NCBI GenBank assembly: GCA_002104935.1 | Contig: MCGT01000003.1 | Span: 1,211,104-1,275,103 of the forward strand | Direction: 5' to 3' | Source: Hesseltinella vesiculosa | Lineage: Eukaryota > Mucoromycota > Mucoromycetes > Mucorales > Cunninghamellaceae | Length of the DNA: 64,000 nt | In this document: piece after piece, positions 56,208-64,000 of the stretch | Numbering within the stretch: position 1 is the stretch's first letter | Layout: each line of letters begins with the position of its first letter | Position numbers and translations under genes: made by a program | The notes under the pieces: model-generated | What the model was told of the DNA's origin: nothing | Seen by the model: the letters and a program-made list of their open reading frames with translations, nothing else | Database searches by the model: none

Positions 56208-56220
56208 TATTTTTGTTTTA

Positions 56221-57953
56221 CACTCTCTCCATGAATAATAAGTGGCGGCTCTCCTGGAAGACAGGTGGCGGACTTTGGATTTTTGAGTGTCGCACAAGCC
56301 AAGACAAATTTGGCGCAGCGTTTTTTTTTTTTTGTCGGGATGACCAAATGGACTATGTCGCATTTTGAGAAAGTTGCCTTTTTCCATGTTTCCCCGATAA
56401 ACAAGTATATAAGAAGCGATCTAATGTGTGGCAGTTGTACATTTCAAAGGTCACTGATTTTGGTTATTACGTATGAAAAAGTTCAGCTTTGTCCACGACG
56501 ATGGTTTTGGGAAAATAACGGATGACAGCGGTCAAGCGATGGTCCTTGATGAGGAGCCAACCATTGAACTGGATCCAGGCGCGATGATGGAAGTTGAAAC
56601 ACTGACCAACCTCAATCAATATCTGTCAGAAGGAATTGCTGCTGCCGATTTGATTGAAGCAGTGATATCCGAGTCCACCGACAAAGAAATCAGCCCAAAG
56701 AAAAATGTTGGGAAGCGAAAGCCGCGACATGATTACGAAGTCAAGCGTCTTGTTGTCACCTACAAGTTGGAAAAGCTTTGTTCAGCAGCTGAAGCTGGAC
56801 GTCGGCACAATGTTGACTCAAGAACTGCCCAGAGGTGGTGCAAGCAATTTGACGAGGAGGGAACGATAGACATGAAGACAAAAAACGCCGGACGGAAAAC
56901 TATCTTGCTTGATGATCACAAGGATTTCATCATCTCCTTCATCGACGACAAGCCGACAGCGACGGTATGCGACGTTGTGGATGCACTCATTCATGAATTC
57001 CAAGGGTTGACTATCAAGAAATCGACTATACATAAGTATATGGTGAATGACTGCCGATTGTCGCTCAAGAGGACCAGAGTGCATGCTGAGAATCGAAACG
57101 CGGATGAAACGCTCGACAAGCGACTCGCATGGGCGGTGCAGTGGACTGCAACAGACATGGATTTTATAAAGAACTGTGTCTTCATCGATGAAGCGTCATT
57201 TAGCATCAATTTGCGCCGAACAGTAGGCTGGTCGCGTGTCGGATCAAAGACAGTCGTGGAAGCAGCCGCCACGAAATCCAAGACGCATACGATCCTTGGT
57301 GCTATTTGTGCTGCTGGTGTTGTTCAAATCAGCATGAGAAGCCCGCCTACAGGGAACAAGAAACGCAAACTTGATCAAGATATCTACAAGCACATTGGAG
57401 TCGGCACAAACACTCATCACTACATCGCCTTCTTGAATGAGGTCATGAATACTATGGACCAACACCCAGAATTTGAGGGCTACTATTTGGTGATGGACAA
57501 TGCACCAATTCATCAATCCAAGGCCATCGACACCTTCATCAGGAACCGTGGGTATCGATGCATGTATCTTCCGCCCTATTCCCCTGAGCTCAATCCGATT
57601 GAGCAGTTCTGGTCGGCCGTAAAGAGCAAGGTTAGGCGTGACGAGCTGAAAGATGACGAGTTGTTGTCTCATCGAGTCAAGGCGGCGTGTAATAATGTTT
57701 CTATCAAGAGTCTGCATGGCTTTATCGGTTATTCTGCTGCCCGGATCAATGACTGTTTCCATAGGACTCCTATGTAGTTGTATTTAATAAACAACTTGTC
57801 GCACGACAAGTCTATTACGACACGAAAAAAAAATATCTACGACAAAAAAAAAAAAACGCTGCGCCAAATTTGTCTTGGCTCGTGCGACATTCAGAAATCC
57901 AAAGTCCGCAATCCGTCTTCCAGGAGAGCCGCCACTTATTCATGGAAAGAGTG
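56221..57953 (+). mobile_element. Tc1/mariner element A (complete, potentially autonomous)
   Basis: A 1733-bp element flanked by TA (56219-56220 and 57954-57955). Terminal inverted repeats are about 115 bp. They start CACTCT(C/T)TCCATGAATAA, run through gtggcggctctcctggaag and tttggcgcagcg, and end in a poly-T/poly-A run. It encodes one transposase with all three acidic catalytic residues. Its right TA is shared with the left end of element B. Confidence 0.9.
56473..57777 (+). CDS. Tc1/mariner (IS630 superfamily) transposase, DD34E
   Basis: An uninterrupted single-exon frame of 434 residues that cuts and pastes the element at TA sites. Residues ~75-190 form paired helix-turn-helix DNA-binding domains (DYEVKRLVVTYKLEKLCSAA, then HNVDSRTAQRWCKQFDEEG and TIKKSTIHKYMVNDCRLSLK). 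A lysine-rich NVGKRKPRHDYEVKR may be the nuclear signal. The DDE domain has Asp ~239 in VFIDEASFSINLRRTVGW, Asp ~342 in LVMDNAPIHQSKAIDTF and Glu ~377 in YSPELNPIEQFWSAVK. That leaves 34 residues between the last two, the Tc1 signature spacing. The ~70-residue N-terminus is acidic and of unknown role. With intact frame, TIRs and TA duplications, this copy may be recent or active. Confidence 0.95.
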   Translation: MKKFSFVHDDGFGKITDDSGQAMVLDEEPTIELDPGAMMEVETLTNLNQYLSEGIAAADLIEAVISESTDKEISPKKNVGKRKPRHDYEVKRLVVTYKLEKLCSAAEAGRRHNVDSRTAQRWCKQFDEEGTIDMKTKNAGRKTILLDDHKDFIISFIDDKPTATVCDVVDALIHEFQGLTIKKSTIHKYMVNDCRLSLKRTRVHAENRNADETLDKRLAWAVQWTATDMDFIKNCVFIDEASFSINLRRTVGWSRVGSKTVVEAAATKSKTHTILGAICAAGVVQISMRSPPTGNKKRKLDQDIYKHIGVGTNTHHYIAFLNEVMNTMDQHPEFEGYYLVMDNAPIHQSKAIDTFIRNRGYRCMYLPPYSPELNPIEQFWSAVKSKVRRDELKDDELLSHRVKAACNNVSIKSLHGFIGYSAARINDCFHRTPM

Positions 57954-57955
57954 TA

Positions 57956-58727
57956 CAGCGTTTCCATGAATAAGTGGCGGCTCTCCTGGAAGACAGGTGG
58001 CGGACTTTGGATTTCCCTGGTGTCGCACAAGCCAAGACAAATTTGGCGCAACTTTTTTTTTTTTTTGTCGTAGATATTTTTTTTTCGTGTCGTCATAGAC
58101 TTGTCGTGCGACAAACTGTTACTTAAATACAACTACATAGGGGTCCTATGGAAGCAGTCAATGATGCGGGGAGAAGAATTACTGATAAAGCCATGCAGAT
58201 CCTTGATAGAAACATCATTACACGCCGCTTTGACGATGCGGCCGACCCGAACTGCTCAATCGGATCGAGCTCAGGGGAATAGGTTGGAAGATGCATGCAT
58301 CGATACCCACGATTCCTGATGAAAGTATCGATGGCCTTGGATTGATGACTTGGTGCATTGTCCATCACCAAATAGCAGCCCTCAAATTCTGGAGGTTGGT
58401 CCATAGTTTCATGACCTCATTCAACAAGGCGATGTAGTGATGAGTGTTTGTGCCGATGCCAATGTGTTTGTAGGTAACTTGATCAAGTTTGCTTTTTTGT
58501 TCCCTGTAGGCGGACTTCTCATGCTGATTTGAACAACACCAGAAGCACAAGCACCAAGGATCGTAGAAAAAGGCAACTTTCTCAAAATGCGACATTATGC
58601 TTTTGGTCATCCTGTCAAAAAAAAAAAAAAGTTGCGCCAAATTTGTCTTGGCTTGTGCGACACCAGGGAAATCCAAAGTCCGCCACCTGTCTTCCAGGAG
58701 AGCCGCCACTTATTCATGGAAACGCTG
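57956..58727 (-). mobile_element. Tc1/mariner element B (internally deleted, inverted)
   Basis: A 772-bp derivative of the A family lying in reverse orientation between TA at 57954-57955 and TA at 58728-58729. Its termini begin CAGCGTTTCCATGAATAA, slightly different from CACTCTTTCC in A and C. Minus-strand coding remains include LVMDNAPSHQSKAIDTFIRN and YSPELDPIEQFGSAASSK followed by frame loss. The DNA-binding half is missing. The deletion joins the 5' leader (aaagttgcctttttc) directly to the catalytic-domain DNA starting near the ATCCTTGGTGC position of A. It is non-autonomous. Confidence 0.88.
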
Positions 58728-58729
58728 TA

Positions 58730-59498
58730 CACTCTTTCCATGAATAAGTGGCGGCTTTCAAGGAAGACAGGTGGCGGACTTTGGATTTTCGAGTGTCGCA
58801 CAAGCTAAGACAAATTTGGCGCAACATTTTTTTTTTTTGTCAGGATGACCAAATGCATAATGTCGCATTTTGAGAAAGTTGCCTTTTTCCACGATCCTTG
58901 GTCCTTGTGCTTCTGGTGTTGTTCAAATCAGCATGGCAAGTCCGCCTACAAGGAACAAAAAAAGCAACTTGATCAAGTTACCTACAAACACATTGGCATC
59001 GGCACAAACACTTATCACTACATCGCCTTCTTGAATGAGGTCATGAATACTATGGACCAACATCCAGAATTTGACGGCTGCTATTTGGTGATGGACAATG
59101 CACCAAGTCATCAATCCAAGGCCATCGATAGCTTCATCAGGAATCGTGGGTATCGATACATGCATCTTCCAACCTATTCTCCTGAGCTCGATCCGATTGA
59201 GCAGTTCTGGTCGGCCGCATCGTCAAAGCGGCGTGGAATGATGTTTCTATCAAGGATCTGCATGGCTTTATCGGTAATTCTTCTCCCCGCATCAATGACT
59301 GCTTCCATAGGACCCCTATGTAGTTGTATTTAAGTAGCAGTTTGTCGCACGACAAGTCGATGACGACACGAAAAAAAAATATCTACGACAAAAAAAAAAA
59401 ATCCTGCGCCAAATTTATCATGGTTTGTGCGACACTCGGAAATCCAAAGTCCGCCACCTGTCTTCCAGGAGAGCCGCCACTTACTCATGGAAAGAGTG
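58730..59498 (+). mobile_element. Tc1/mariner element C (internally deleted)
   Basis: A 769-bp derivative in the same orientation as A, between TA at 58728-58729 and TA at 59499-59500, with termini CACTCTTTCCATGAATAAG. It retains a plus frame at 58845-59333 encoding IGTNTYHYIAFLNEVMNTMD, LVMDNAPSHQSKAIDSFIRN and YSPELDPIEQFWSAA before shifting frame, so the transposase is dead. It has the same internal deletion junction as element B, so both descend from one deletion derivative. With B it forms a near-perfect palindrome of two ~770-bp arms around 58728. Confidence 0.88.
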
Positions 59499-59500
59499 TA

Positions 59501-59948
59501 CTGTTTTTCCAAGAAAGGAAGTCGCCCTCTGTGTGAAACACTGTCGCCTTTTTCAGGACGGATGCGTCGCATTGTAATGAAATGAATGAGACTTACACAT
59601 GGCTTCTGCTTTCCAGTATCAACTGAATGTGAAGGACCACAGTATCACTTTTTCTCTTCGAAAACATGGAGCTCGATAGGATGGATGCCAAGGAAGAAGA
59701 TGGAAGCCTGAAAAGCCCAGGGTCTTTATTACTTGATTATTTCAGGCTCGTTTACCCACTCCCTCTTTCTTATTTTTAGTTCTTGCTTTCCTTCAGCCGA
59801 TCTCTTGTAAAATAAATGTCACAATCACTTTCGTTTATCCATGAGGTTAAACGAAGAGCCCTAAAAGAGAGAAGATACGTGTTTGAGTGAACAATCAGAG
59901 CTGCAGTCGCGCGTCCCTTTTTCCTCTCCGCCTTATTTTTTTGTTTGC

Positions 59949-60014
<66 letters not shown>

Positions 60015-60077
60015 ATTTTTTTTCTCCTTCACGCATTTACCTTTCGACTTTGTTCACCTTATTCTTGTAGTTATGCA
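59501..60077. other. Spacer and CT-rich leader of the Fanzor-like gene
   Basis: The first 100 bp after element C contain tgtcgcc and gtcgcattgt motifs reminiscent of transposon termini, but no second matching end was proven. The final part is promoter-like and CT-rich. Confidence 0.4.
59953..60012 (+). repeat. (CT)n microsatellite, about 30 units
   Basis: A pure dinucleotide run lies 65 bp upstream of the probable start codon of the Fanzor-like gene. CT-rich blocks are common just before start codons in this window, but this is the only perfect long one. It makes a long Ser/Leu frame in two frames, which is not taken as coding. Confidence 0.9.
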
Positions 60078-63000
60078 ATGTCCCAAACCATTCTACAACA
60101 AAGAGCCTATTTGGAGGGTCTAAAACGGCGCAAAATTGAAAGAGAAGAAGAACAAGAGCGACAAGGTGAGATCTTGCTCCAGAACAAGGACAGCTAACAG
60201 AATGCTTTGTTTCAATACGTTCAGGCAGAACACCCTGTGCCAGATGCGGAAGGACAGATCATGTGGATGGTCGTTCCCGGCTCTGCCCATTCAACAGTAA
60301 GTTGATCATGACAAGCATTGGTCAAACGAAATATCTGACTGGTTTTTTTTTTTTTTTTTTTTGCTGCTAGGACATTATGGGGCACCAACCCAAGCAGTTG
60401 TGAGACAGCAGAACAGACAAGGGAGAAGAGCAGGCCAACGGCAATTGGACGCCGCCCGGGCCAATCCCAACGTTCCCCGATGCCCACACTGCATTCTCCC
60501 GGACGGAAGCAATGACGCGTGCGAGCACCACGGAAATGCTGCCAGCCACCTCTGCCACGCCCATAAAACCAATGTGGACGATGTTCTGGGCAACATCATT
60601 GGTCCAAACCACACCCCTTTTGTCCGTCGCTGTTCTCTGAAGCATGCCCTGCGATGCTATGGCCATTCCAGACGGCAGCGAATGCGTGCCAAAGCAAATG
60701 TGATGCAAGAAGTGAACGTCGTTGTCGACCATGTGCGGGATCTGTCGATCAAAGCCATGCTTTTCACCCAACATCATGCTCTGACACTGTTGGAAGGTTC
60801 TGAGCCAATCCCTCTCCATTTTGGTTCGCAAGATTACATTTATGGCGTTATGCAGTTGCTGCTTGGTGGTCACATCACGAACCAAAATCCGAACCTCCCC
60901 CAAGACACAGAATCCATTTTTCACGCATATGTCCAATCATTCGAAACCGCGGATCTCCCAACAGTTCAACCGTTACCTGGCTATTCCCAAACATACGCTC
61001 ATATGGCCAAGACCCTAGCCACAGCGGTCAAGAATGGCCTGGCTGAATCATTTGAACCTCGCTGCCGAACCTTCTTGGCGTTCAAACTCCGATCTTTGAT
61101 TCCAGCCAATGTAAGTTGCGAGGGAAAAGAAGACAGGAACTAAACAACTCTCCATCTTTGCCTCTTAACAGGAAAAGCCAACTAAAAAATCATTGAAGAA
61201 ATTGGTGTCATTTGCCTACGACACTCTCTGCGGGACTGACAGCGAACCAGCAACTCCTACGTATGCACATGCTTCCTGGCAAGATGCTGTGGCGTCAGTG
61301 ATTTCCAATGTGACCCTAGGGCCGACGCCTGTGAATTTGGAAAATCTAACAGCCAAGTTTAACTTATACTTGCCCGTCGTGTATGGATTCCTTGGTAAGG
61401 GCGTAAAAAGAGGCTCAATTGTGTCAAAGGAAATATGACTCATCTCTTCCTCCTCCAAAAAATAAAAATAGCTGAAATGGAAGCCTACAATAATGCAGCC
61501 ACTGGTGTAGTGAGCGAAGAAACAATCGTCGACTATGCTGACAACAAGAGCTGCTGGGAGCTGCTTACGCGTTTGGACCGATTCAATGATCTGGGCCGCC
61601 GGCAGCAAAACCGCCTTGTCCGTGCGTTTTTCAAAATGGTCAACCATCCGACGATGCCTGTCAGATTTGGCCCAAAGCTTGGCGATTATCTTCGCAGTGG
61701 AATGACAACATTGGTAACAAGAACCCGTGAACAACTCTCGTTGTCACGCCAATTCCTGAATGGACGGTATATGATCGACACGTCAGTATGCTTCAGAACG
61801 ACAACAGCTTCAACAATGCATGTCACAAAAATGTATACCCTGCTGCCTGCTCTTCGATTCACGCGCAAGTTTGTGACTCTGGATGCCCAGTGTCTGGCCC
61901 GGATTTTCGACCAAGCAGGTGCACAACCTCGATACGAAGATTATTTGTTCGTCGGCAATCCTGTGGCAATGGACGGCCCTAACGACGAACCATCCAGACG
62001 AGGACGACCCAGACAGCCGGTTCTTTCTGACTATCAAAAGATCAAGAAGAAGTTCCTGGTATTTTGGAGTTCGTTGGATTTCAAAAAGGTCCGACTGGAG
62101 CAGTGGTAAGCTTGGGCAGGTGAATAGAAAAAAAAAAAAGCGGGCATCGTGGTAATCTTTTTGTTTCCCTAGCCGAGAATCTCTGGGTCGTATGATGTGG
62201 ATGTGCCCCCTGAAGGGAACAAAATAGCATTCAGGAACCTTGTACGAACCGATGGCCATACCCTGGAATTCCTGTGCGAACGGAAAAGCCGAGAACGCCT
62301 GCCTGATCTCGTCATGAGTGACTTGGATGACAACGACATGGTGGAATTTTGGTCCTATGGTGTTGACCCAGGGCACACGGTGCCATTCACAGCAAGTGGA
62401 TTCCGAAAAAAATTGCCTTCGATTCACAAACAACGAATTTTACGCCAAATCCGGGTATAAAAAACGTCGATACCACCGCCAGCTGTCAACCACCGAGTCT
62501 GGGATGAACATTGCACTCAACAGCCTGCCAACGAAAAAAACGGTGATCATCGACCAGATGGACATCGTATTGCCAGTCGCTGTGCGAGACCCTGCCTGTG
62601 CTTTACCAATTTTATGGCTCATCCTTTACCAATGCGCGCTTTTTGGCCTATGTCTCTAAGCAAAAAGTCCTGGATGAGATGGTGAACATCTTTGCGTTTG
62701 GTGGCAAAAAATATAAAGAACATGACGTACTGTAAGTATGAATGGTAAAAAAGAGAGAGGGGGGGGATAACGGAGATTGACGTCAATCTTTATTTTTTTA
62801 TTCAGTAAAAAAATACCCTTTTCAAGAATACCCCTGGTCATGATGGGCTCTGGTGTGTTCGGCTTCACACTGAAGGGAAAAAAACGCGCATGTCAATTAT
62901 GCCAAAACTCAAGCAAGCCGAGTTGGGAAGGACGGCTGCTTGTCTGCGTGGTCAATGAAAGCTTTACAAGTCAAGTAAGACAGAACTGGGGTGGCGGGAA

Positions 63001-63253
63001 GAATAGCTGCTCATAACAAGTGTCTTGGTTTTAGGTATGCTGTGCCTGCCACACGCAATCTCTGTCGCTTGCGCGAGTTCTTGACCCTTTGACCGATTCC
63101 GCGGTTTCCCTCTGGTCTGTAAAGACATGCTACATTTGCCAACGCCATTGGAACCGGGACAAGTCGGCAGCCAAAAACATTCTGCACCTGGGATATTTGG
63201 AACAAGAGAAGCAACCTCGTCCCGAAGTTTTCACCAAGTCAATGAGCCATTGA
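60078..63253 (+). CDS. Fanzor-like (TnpB-related) putative RNA-guided nuclease, frame-damaged
   Basis: Eukaryotic TnpB homologue. Exons: 60078-60165, 60225-60296, 60371-61110, 61172-61394, 61472-62105 (donor uncertain), 62173-62731, 62806-62974, 63035-63253; about 900 residues. The N-terminus is coiled coil plus Cys motifs (CARCGRTDHVDGRSRLC, CPHCILPDGSNDACEHH). A long helical region follows, then FRNLVRTDGHTLEFLCERK. RuvC-I aspartate: WSYGVDPGHT. Next: NNEFYAKSGYKKRR, SLPTKKT, YQFYGSSF...FLAYVSKQKVLDEMVNIF, FGGKKYK and MGSGVFGFTLKGKK. The relocated glutamate is in VVNESFTSQ. Zinc ribbon: VCCACH and TCYIC. RuvC-III aspartate: NRDKSAAKNIL. Disruptions: frame changes at the A7 run 62406-62412 and between about 62541 and 62572, plus a phase conflict at the exon 5/6 junction. 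It could be a decaying gene or carry sequencing indels. Start: first ATG giving MSQTILQQRAYLEGLKRRK after the CT tract. Confidence 0.8.
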
Positions 63254-64000
63254 TGAAATCCCGAAGATTTCAATTTTACACCTTTCAAATGTAGACGACA
63301 AAGGCGTCTTTGTCTGTCCTTGGTAAGAAAGATGAGAAAGACAAGGCAGATTCCTTACCTTTTTATTTAGGGTAAATTTTCAAACCATATCGAAGAGTAT
63401 GAACTAACATTTCCTTCCCTTTGTACACGACTCTGCCTTTCCCTCTTGTATTGTAAGCTTCACTCTCGTGGAATAGCCAAGCATCACTTTCGTCACTCAC
63501 CGTTCGATTTTTATTTATTCTTAGCGGTGTTTCTTTTGGTTGATACTGTATGCTCCCTTTCGCCTTCGTGAGTACCACATCCATCTCAAGTATAAGGTTT
63601 AGTTGCTTCAGGCTGACACTTATGCCTTAAATATTATAGCTCCACTCTTCGGTTTTTTTTCTCTCTTGGTGCTCATCACCACAATTGATGCACGACAATG
63701 CGACTTTTTTTTGATTTTGTTATTTCACGACTTCGTTATTTTGGTATTCCGACATTCATTTTTGGATAAAGTGTACTGTGTAGATGAACGAGAACAGTGG
63801 GAGGAAAGGGCAGAGGCGTTAGGCAATAAAGGGGAACATGGCTCTGCGGTTCTTGGGATAGTTGGGGAATTCTTTCTTGTAATTTTTGTGCTTCTTGATG
63901 GCCAAACGTACATTTGACCGGTGGCTACCACGTTGAACAAAAAGGCTGCCGAGAAGAATAAAAGATGAGACGATCAACAGAAAAAAATAAAAAAACCTTA
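63254..64000. other. 3' flank of the Fanzor-like gene
   Basis: Noncoding as far as can be seen. In known systems the guide-bearing RNA lies at or after the 3' end of the nuclease ORF, so 63254 to about 63650 is where such an RNA would be sought. No conserved hairpin was established by eye. Short frames here lack motifs. Confidence 0.4.

Follow-up and report, generated by a model that had tools for sequence, protein, structure and literature searches.

The window analysed here is a stretch of 64,000 nucleotides from the fungus Hesseltinella vesiculosa (contig MCGT01000003.1, positions 1,211,104 to 1,275,103 of the forward strand), whose genome assembly comprises 27.05 Mb in 85 contigs. Towards its right end the + strand carries a gene that starts at 60078 and stops at 63253, with eight exons and seven GT-AG introns; the splice model agrees with the original prediction in the start, the stop and the exon structure. 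Exon 1 (60078-60165) follows from this model, under which 900 codons are open in five of 15 copies. Exon 2 (60225-60296) encodes a zinc-knuckle-like motif, CARCG-x3-H-x7-CP, which is also seen in the family alignment. Exon 3 (60371-61110) encodes a Cys/His-rich block and then a region predicted, with low confidence, to be helical (AlphaFold2 mean pLDDT 59.2). Exons 4 (61172-61394) and 5 (61472-62105) are defined by the splice model. Exon 6 (62173-62731), placed by the splice model, the copy alignment and a weak alignment to SpuFz1, contains the TDG motif and the DPG of RuvC-I (Asp codon 62365-62367). Exon 7 (62806-62974), placed by the splice model and the copy alignment, contains the relocated Glu of RuvC-II (62957-62959). 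The reading frame of the window copy is broken in both exons 6 and 7. Exon 8 (63035-63253; splice model and Pfam) contains the C4 zinc ribbon, the Asp of RuvC-III (63158-63160) and the stop codon (63251-63253).

The gene had been predicted to encode a Fanzor, an enzyme related to the CRISPR nucleases that would probably cut DNA under RNA guidance. The motifs on which this prediction was based, namely TDG, DPG, VVNESFTSQ followed by CxxC...CxxC, and NRDKSAAKNIL, are all present in the order described, and their composite signature occurs in none of 20,000 shuffles of the protein spliced from the copy L030. In this protein the catalytic residues are D651, E823 and D870 and the ribbon cysteines are C830/C833 and C860/C863. 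The profile PF07282 (OrfB_Zn_ribbon / Cas12f1-like_TNB) scores 29.5 bits on the spliced L030 protein, over the cut-off of 26.3, so that the TnpB/Fanzor profile match on which the original prediction had been staked is present. It is the sole Pfam family over its cut-off (DAP10, with E 0.13, stays under); exon 8 of the window alone scores 15.7 bits, under the cut-off. The NCBIfam matches at E<=1 are three, guided_TnpB, IS200_TnpB and Cas12f2, and the first of these covers the C-terminal 60 residues with E 3.8e-7 and 29.7 bits, far under its cut-off of 100. When the single protein is searched against the PDB, the only match at E<=1 is SpuFz1 of Spizellomyces punctatus (PDB 8gkh), a weak similarity (E 0.75) whose aligned parts are the DPG block and the C-terminal WNRD...RPEVF block. 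With a two-sequence profile SpuFz1 has E 0.51 and is fourth of 16, behind three unrelated chance matches.

The published motif of the superfamily and of Fanzor1, in the available text of PMC3627910, is D-X(125,275)-[TS][TS]XX-C4-X(5,50)-RD. The L030 protein contains it, from D651 to T826 and on through TSQV-CxxC-x26-CxxC-x5-RD. For Fanzors the accessible part of PMC10711439 gives a DPG, a Glu six residues before the ribbon and, in Fanzor1, the TDG of the WED domain. In L030 the DPG lies at 651-653 and the Glu six residues ahead of the first CxxC (E-SFTSQV-C), which separates Fanzors from ordinary TnpB. The RTDGHT of the window family, which a related gene described below (gene B) keeps, corresponds to the Fanzor1 TDG, with a putative placement in the WED domain. 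The same source gives an expression for Fanzor-related TnpB, DPG-x(120-160)-E-x6-CxxC-x(12-18)-CxxC-x(4-8)-D (PMC10711439). L030 falls outside it because two of its loops are longer (x169 and x26), and the protein is therefore not filed as a Fanzor-related TnpB of the prokaryote type. The motif order and the relocated Glu fit published Fanzor1 (PMC3627910, PMC10711439) and, together with the PF07282 score, uphold the Fanzor reading: the sequence supports the gene as a Fanzor1, a eukaryotic relative of TnpB. Fold models were set aside in this assignment. The model of exon 6, built from three sequences, has a pLDDT of 34.5 and was discarded as evidence for a RuvC core. The model of exon 3 (pLDDT 59.2) gave 119 matches in the PDB at E<=10, of which not one reached E<=0.001; they were rejected as chance, and 14-3-3 chains with an rmsd near 17 make up many of the 50 listed.

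Comparison of copies indicates that the gene is the sole protein gene of a 4.27-kb element with sharp ends. The whole element spans 4,273 bp (59501-63773, + strand), beyond which the copies stop aligning and the flanks are unrelated, and a TA is found on each side (59499-59500 and 63774-63775). With these TA included, the left end (59499-59526, + strand; aligned left ends of 10 loci, compared with a mariner end) and the right end (63748-63775, - strand; 11 rows from 10 loci) form imperfect terminal inverted repeats. The gene is present at 17 places in the genome with 97-100% identity, and at 10 of them at least 3,163 of its 3,176 bases are spanned. The original account of the gene, sound in its structure, had missed this repetitive nature, the defined ends of the element and the broken frame of the window copy. 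Eleven of the 17 places are at contig ends, because the assembly breaks at a repeat. An association with telomeres was considered and rejected, as both orientations occur and no telomere-like repeat is seen at the window end.

All 11 right-end rows, from 10 loci, end in ATAAAGTG-TA, and the right-end motif GRATAAAGTGTA is found at 40 genomic sites, compared with 4 for the reversed control. On the left, a TA stands ahead of CAG, CTG or TAG in 8 of the 10 family-1 ends; these three terminal bases are more variable than the interior. By-eye reading finds the TA at 11 of 14 left ends, the others being L028, L031 and the C13 copy. The flanks are biased as well. CAG or CTG follows the right-hand TA at 5 of 10 loci, against 3.4% of the TA sites in the window, and 7 of 14 left ends (families 1 and A/A+B, manual count) are preceded by TTTA, against 10.9%. 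This bias could be explained by a transposase preference, by a TAM or by intron tolerance. A target duplication of 5 bp, TACWG, would agree with the window copy and L026; it fails at L028, L030 and L031, and at L032 by one base. The sequences therefore favour a TA with a target preference over such a duplication. The left flanks of L026, L030, L031, L033, L038 and a C12 locus (L043) have a T-rich sequence like an intron end, followed by the CAG or TAG of the element, so that insertion would rebuild a sequence resembling a splice acceptor.

The Fanzor element is the last member of an array. The array begins with a complete Tc1/mariner-like element running from TA to TA (56218-57955, + strand), 99.8% identical to a 1.73-kb copy on contig C15. 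It contains an open frame of 439 codons from stop to stop (56458-57777, + strand) for a DDE_3 transposase; the corresponding frame in the C15 copy (L049), judged similar by eye, scores 9.7e-27 for DDE_3 and 1.4e-6 for HTH_28. Copy comparison then identifies two shortened mariner derivatives, neither assigned to a strand. The first has one TA on each side (57956-58727). The second (58730-59498) retains a DDE_3 remnant (58809-59333) and abuts the Fanzor element at one TA. The four elements are placed head-to-tail with a single TA at each join. With 0 to 3 mismatches allowed, the genome has the mariner end at 80 places (0 for the reversed control), several of them with tandem copies that share a TA. 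A mariner directly adjoins three of the 10 Fanzor left ends, those of the window copy, L032 and L036, and one TA is common to a mariner end and a Fanzor-type right end both on C34 and on C4. In their outer 13 nt the Fanzor ends share 10-11 positions with the end of the mariner, a match equalled by 0.15-0.4% of the 4,773 TA-anchored 13-mers in the window, and a further ~15 nt are only partly alike. An inner CG-containing motif lies, by eye, at an equal distance from the end in both kinds of element.

This short end similarity and the adjacency of the elements suggest that the neighbouring mariner transposase probably moves the Fanzor element in trans. A rather unlikely alternative is that the Fanzor element is moved by its own mechanism or by another transposase, and that the mariner copies are repeats stacked at the same TA. 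Such a mechanism would accommodate the three left ends of 14 that have no TA, the excess variation of the left terminal three bases and the 7 of 10 family-1 left ends that lie in flanks unrelated to mariner. On the other hand, it would leave unexplained why the first 13 bases match those of the mariner, why the inner motif is equidistant and why all 11 right-end rows end in GTG-TA, and mobilisation by the mariner transposase is preferred.

Under the eight-exon model the window copy contains 9 internal stops, which arise from small frame breaks in exons 6 and 7 that are private to it among the aligned copies. Because of these breaks, the motifs originally noted in the window fall in more than one frame. 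These stops, together with five private length changes among the 10 long copies, could mean that the locus is a dead relic whose Fanzor gene has become an inactive pseudogene with a decayed frame, and broken frames are also found in three other long copies (L027, L029 and L032, besides the window copy L024). This reading is improbable, given the other copies. The sequences were retrieved for 15 of the 17 places (C29 and C34 were left out), and L025, L026, L028, L030 and L031 are open over 900 codons, L028 with one splice acceptor reading AA in place of AG. Six of the retrieved copies (L033-L038) are cut by contig ends, and two of these, L033 and L038, are free of stops in the remaining part.

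The relic reading is further opposed by a second reading of what is apparently the same locus. The window's contig, C23, and contig C45 overlap at their ends, and the overlap takes in the element with its right flank. As read from C45, the gene has 900 open codons; close to the C45 end it lacks one knuckle cysteine, which is kept in the window. Between 60601 and 62150 the two readings have zero differences. Towards the C45 end (59707-60600) there are 53, and towards the window end (62151-64000) there are 14, of which 8 are length changes; the 222-bp right flank has one. The differences thus cluster towards each contig's own end and are read as contig-end consensus errors of one locus. From this comparison within the assembly, the frame breaks of the window copy are probably an assembly error and the real locus is probably open. 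As both contig ends would represent the same locus, the 17 places probably amount to 16 loci. Four further copies are also open. The element in the window is a real and probably active Fanzor1 element. The main reading, held at a probability of roughly 80%, is that the product of the gene is a Fanzor1 and the sole protein encoded by a non-autonomous DNA transposon, with mobilisation, a guide RNA and cleavage being presumed.

The protein is also maintained in a divergent relative. Gene B, on contig C12, has the same eight exons and is 59.5% identical to the window-family gene over 881 aligned codons. The differences fall 297, 215 and 553 times at codon positions 1, 2 and 3 (0.34/0.24/0.63), a pattern that points to selection on the protein. 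Gene B retains D651, E823, D870 and all four ribbon cysteines, and its protein scores 30.2 bits for PF07282, over the cut-off. The genome as a whole is very rich in Fanzors: in its 27 Mb, PF07282 has at least 46 matches at E<=0.001. None of these is in the window family, in which an intron splits the ribbon.

Gene B differs from the window gene in its surroundings. On C12 (L043, L039, C12:456501-468500; also L063) there are 8.2-kb elements with the same end motif as the window element, in which an additional, divergent Fanzor, gene A, stands in tandem ahead of gene B. Gene A is recognised by CGIDPGRR, NEFWTS, a C4 ribbon and WDRD; its ribbon scores 21.7 bits for PF07282, under the cut-off, and its RuvC-I exon has 75 genomic matches, some of them pieces of one locus. 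It is located upstream of gene B at six of the eight gene-B loci (two on C12 and one each on C13, C15, C41 and C59) and is absent at the two on C2. It is truncated by the contig end at C15 and C41 and decayed at C13. On C12 the first copy has a stop after RuvC-I and the second copy has a stop as well. Both ends of the element were found at two places on C12, whose left flanks differ; the right flank of the second place lies outside the sequence read. Copies with gene A only have the same left end on C35 and, at two C23 loci, a right-end module of ~95 nt that is 77-78% identical. No left end was found at the tested C23 locus and no right end in the retrieved C35 stretch, and none of these A-only elements was traced from end to end.

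A tentative proposal, with the odds somewhat against it, is that the genome holds OMEGA elements with two effectors, the A and B Fanzor1s, between one pair of mariner-like ends, that the ~95-nt right-end module is common to them and to the A-only elements, and that the window element is a B-only branch. If so, both nucleases might depend on a single guide RNA from the right end, or a guide RNA specific to B might have been lost or gained, and the arrangement would offer a natural test of the coevolution of effector and guide RNA. No published report of two-Fanzor pairs was found in the literature, which was partially covered.

The Cys-rich N-terminus was originally suggested as a possible mark of a lineage-specific subgroup. 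It is real and conserved, but its first part marks no single subgroup, since CARCG-x3-H-x7-CP of exon 2 recurs with identical spacing in three further families of Fanzors in the genome: gene B (CPRCG...), gene A (CPTCG...) and the L062 family (CATCG...). Gene B and the window family also have in common a second block, encoded by exon 3 (RCxxCILPDG...CxHHGN...HLCHAHKT...RRC). As a guess, the N-terminus may bind zinc, and nucleic acid or the transposase. Although so long a Cys/His-rich region kept between two families might suggest a DNA-binding protein domesticated by the host, in which the nuclease is no longer relevant, this is highly implausible for a multi-copy mobile element whose ends are kept and whose catalytic D-E-D is intact in both families. 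Published Fanzor1s are mostly of 600-700 aa (PMC11423790, as far as its available text goes) and reach about 800 aa (PMC10711439, likewise). No publication pairing a Fanzor with a zinc knuckle was found in a literature search that was thin on subscription papers.

Downstream of the gene, a conserved noncoding block (63568-63773, + strand) extends to the right end and is kept in relatives that contain no gene. The relative on C1 (L045, C1:187801-188900) is ~575 bp long and retains both Fanzor-element ends and the 3' block, resembling in this the ghost loci described in the available text of PMC10432273. Those on C52, C23 and C21 are fragments, and the copies on C35 and C2 keep the 3' block with the remainder of the last exons. 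In published Fanzor right-end RNAs the terminal inverted repeat and the target duplication lie inside the scaffold (PMC10711439, in the accessible portion), and for this reason the 3' block is taken as the candidate region for a guide RNA. RNAalifold found no conserved fold in seven 3' blocks (consensus energy -2.6), in five right ends of A-only and A+B elements (-1.7) or in three ends of family-1 type (-1.8), and the Rfam search of the 3' block gave no match.

The following cycle may be proposed. Acting in trans, the mariner transposase would move the Fanzor element by a cut-and-paste mechanism at TA. The nuclease would be loaded with a transcript of the 3' end, whose scaffold would lie in the last ~100-200 nt and whose guide would read into the right flank. 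The nuclease would then recognise a TA-containing motif at the left flank together with the guide match and cut the empty site left by excision. Subsequently, repair of this cut site from a copy would restore the element.

Elements of this type have been described. Fanzor1s with the same motif are found in Tc/mariner-type elements such as PUl-4 and SPu-1 (Bao and Jurka 2013, PMC3627910), and some of these encode only a Fanzor, with terminal inverted repeats like those of confirmed mariners and TA duplications (PMC3627910, available part). They come from other organisms, whereas the window family is distinguished by its 900 aa, eight exons and Cys-rich N-terminus. SPu-1 is a 2.1-kb element with 33-bp terminal inverted repeats and a protein of 633 aa in one open frame, according to the same partial text, in contrast with the imperfect repeats and the 900 codons in eight exons of the window element. 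The SpuFz1 element has putative TA duplications (PMC3627910), and SpuFz1 has a guide RNA (PMC10432273), each as given in the accessible portion. PpFz1 of Parasitella parasitica, also of the Mucorales, is likewise a fungal Fanzor1 with an extra insertion; in the available text of PMC11423790 this is a RuvC insertion (FRI) of ~100 aa, whereas the extra part of the window family is N-terminal. PpFz1 is absent from the PDB sequence-search matches, both with the single protein and with the two-sequence profile. No publication pairing a Fanzor with Mucoromycota was found in the same search, sparse in subscription papers. The element adds to the known type of Fanzor1 in mariner; the two-Fanzor elements and the zinc-knuckle N-terminus are the newer points.

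Fanzors are studied as compact RNA-guided nucleases of eukaryotes, and the reason why transposons keep them is an open question. One small genome here brings together an element that carries the nuclease, a putative helper transposase from an element with similar ends, gene-less relatives and versions with one or two nucleases. As near-identical copies are present and several are open, the ideas of a helper transposase and of empty-site cutting are directly testable in one organism.

Two observations were made elsewhere in the window. Between 17400 and 22512 the open frames indicate two very similar consecutive genes, a tandem duplication, which we take to encode peptidases of the prolyl-oligopeptidase type. 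Between 27063 and 28422 long open frames overlap on both strands in a repetitive, low-complexity stretch rich in Ala and Gln.
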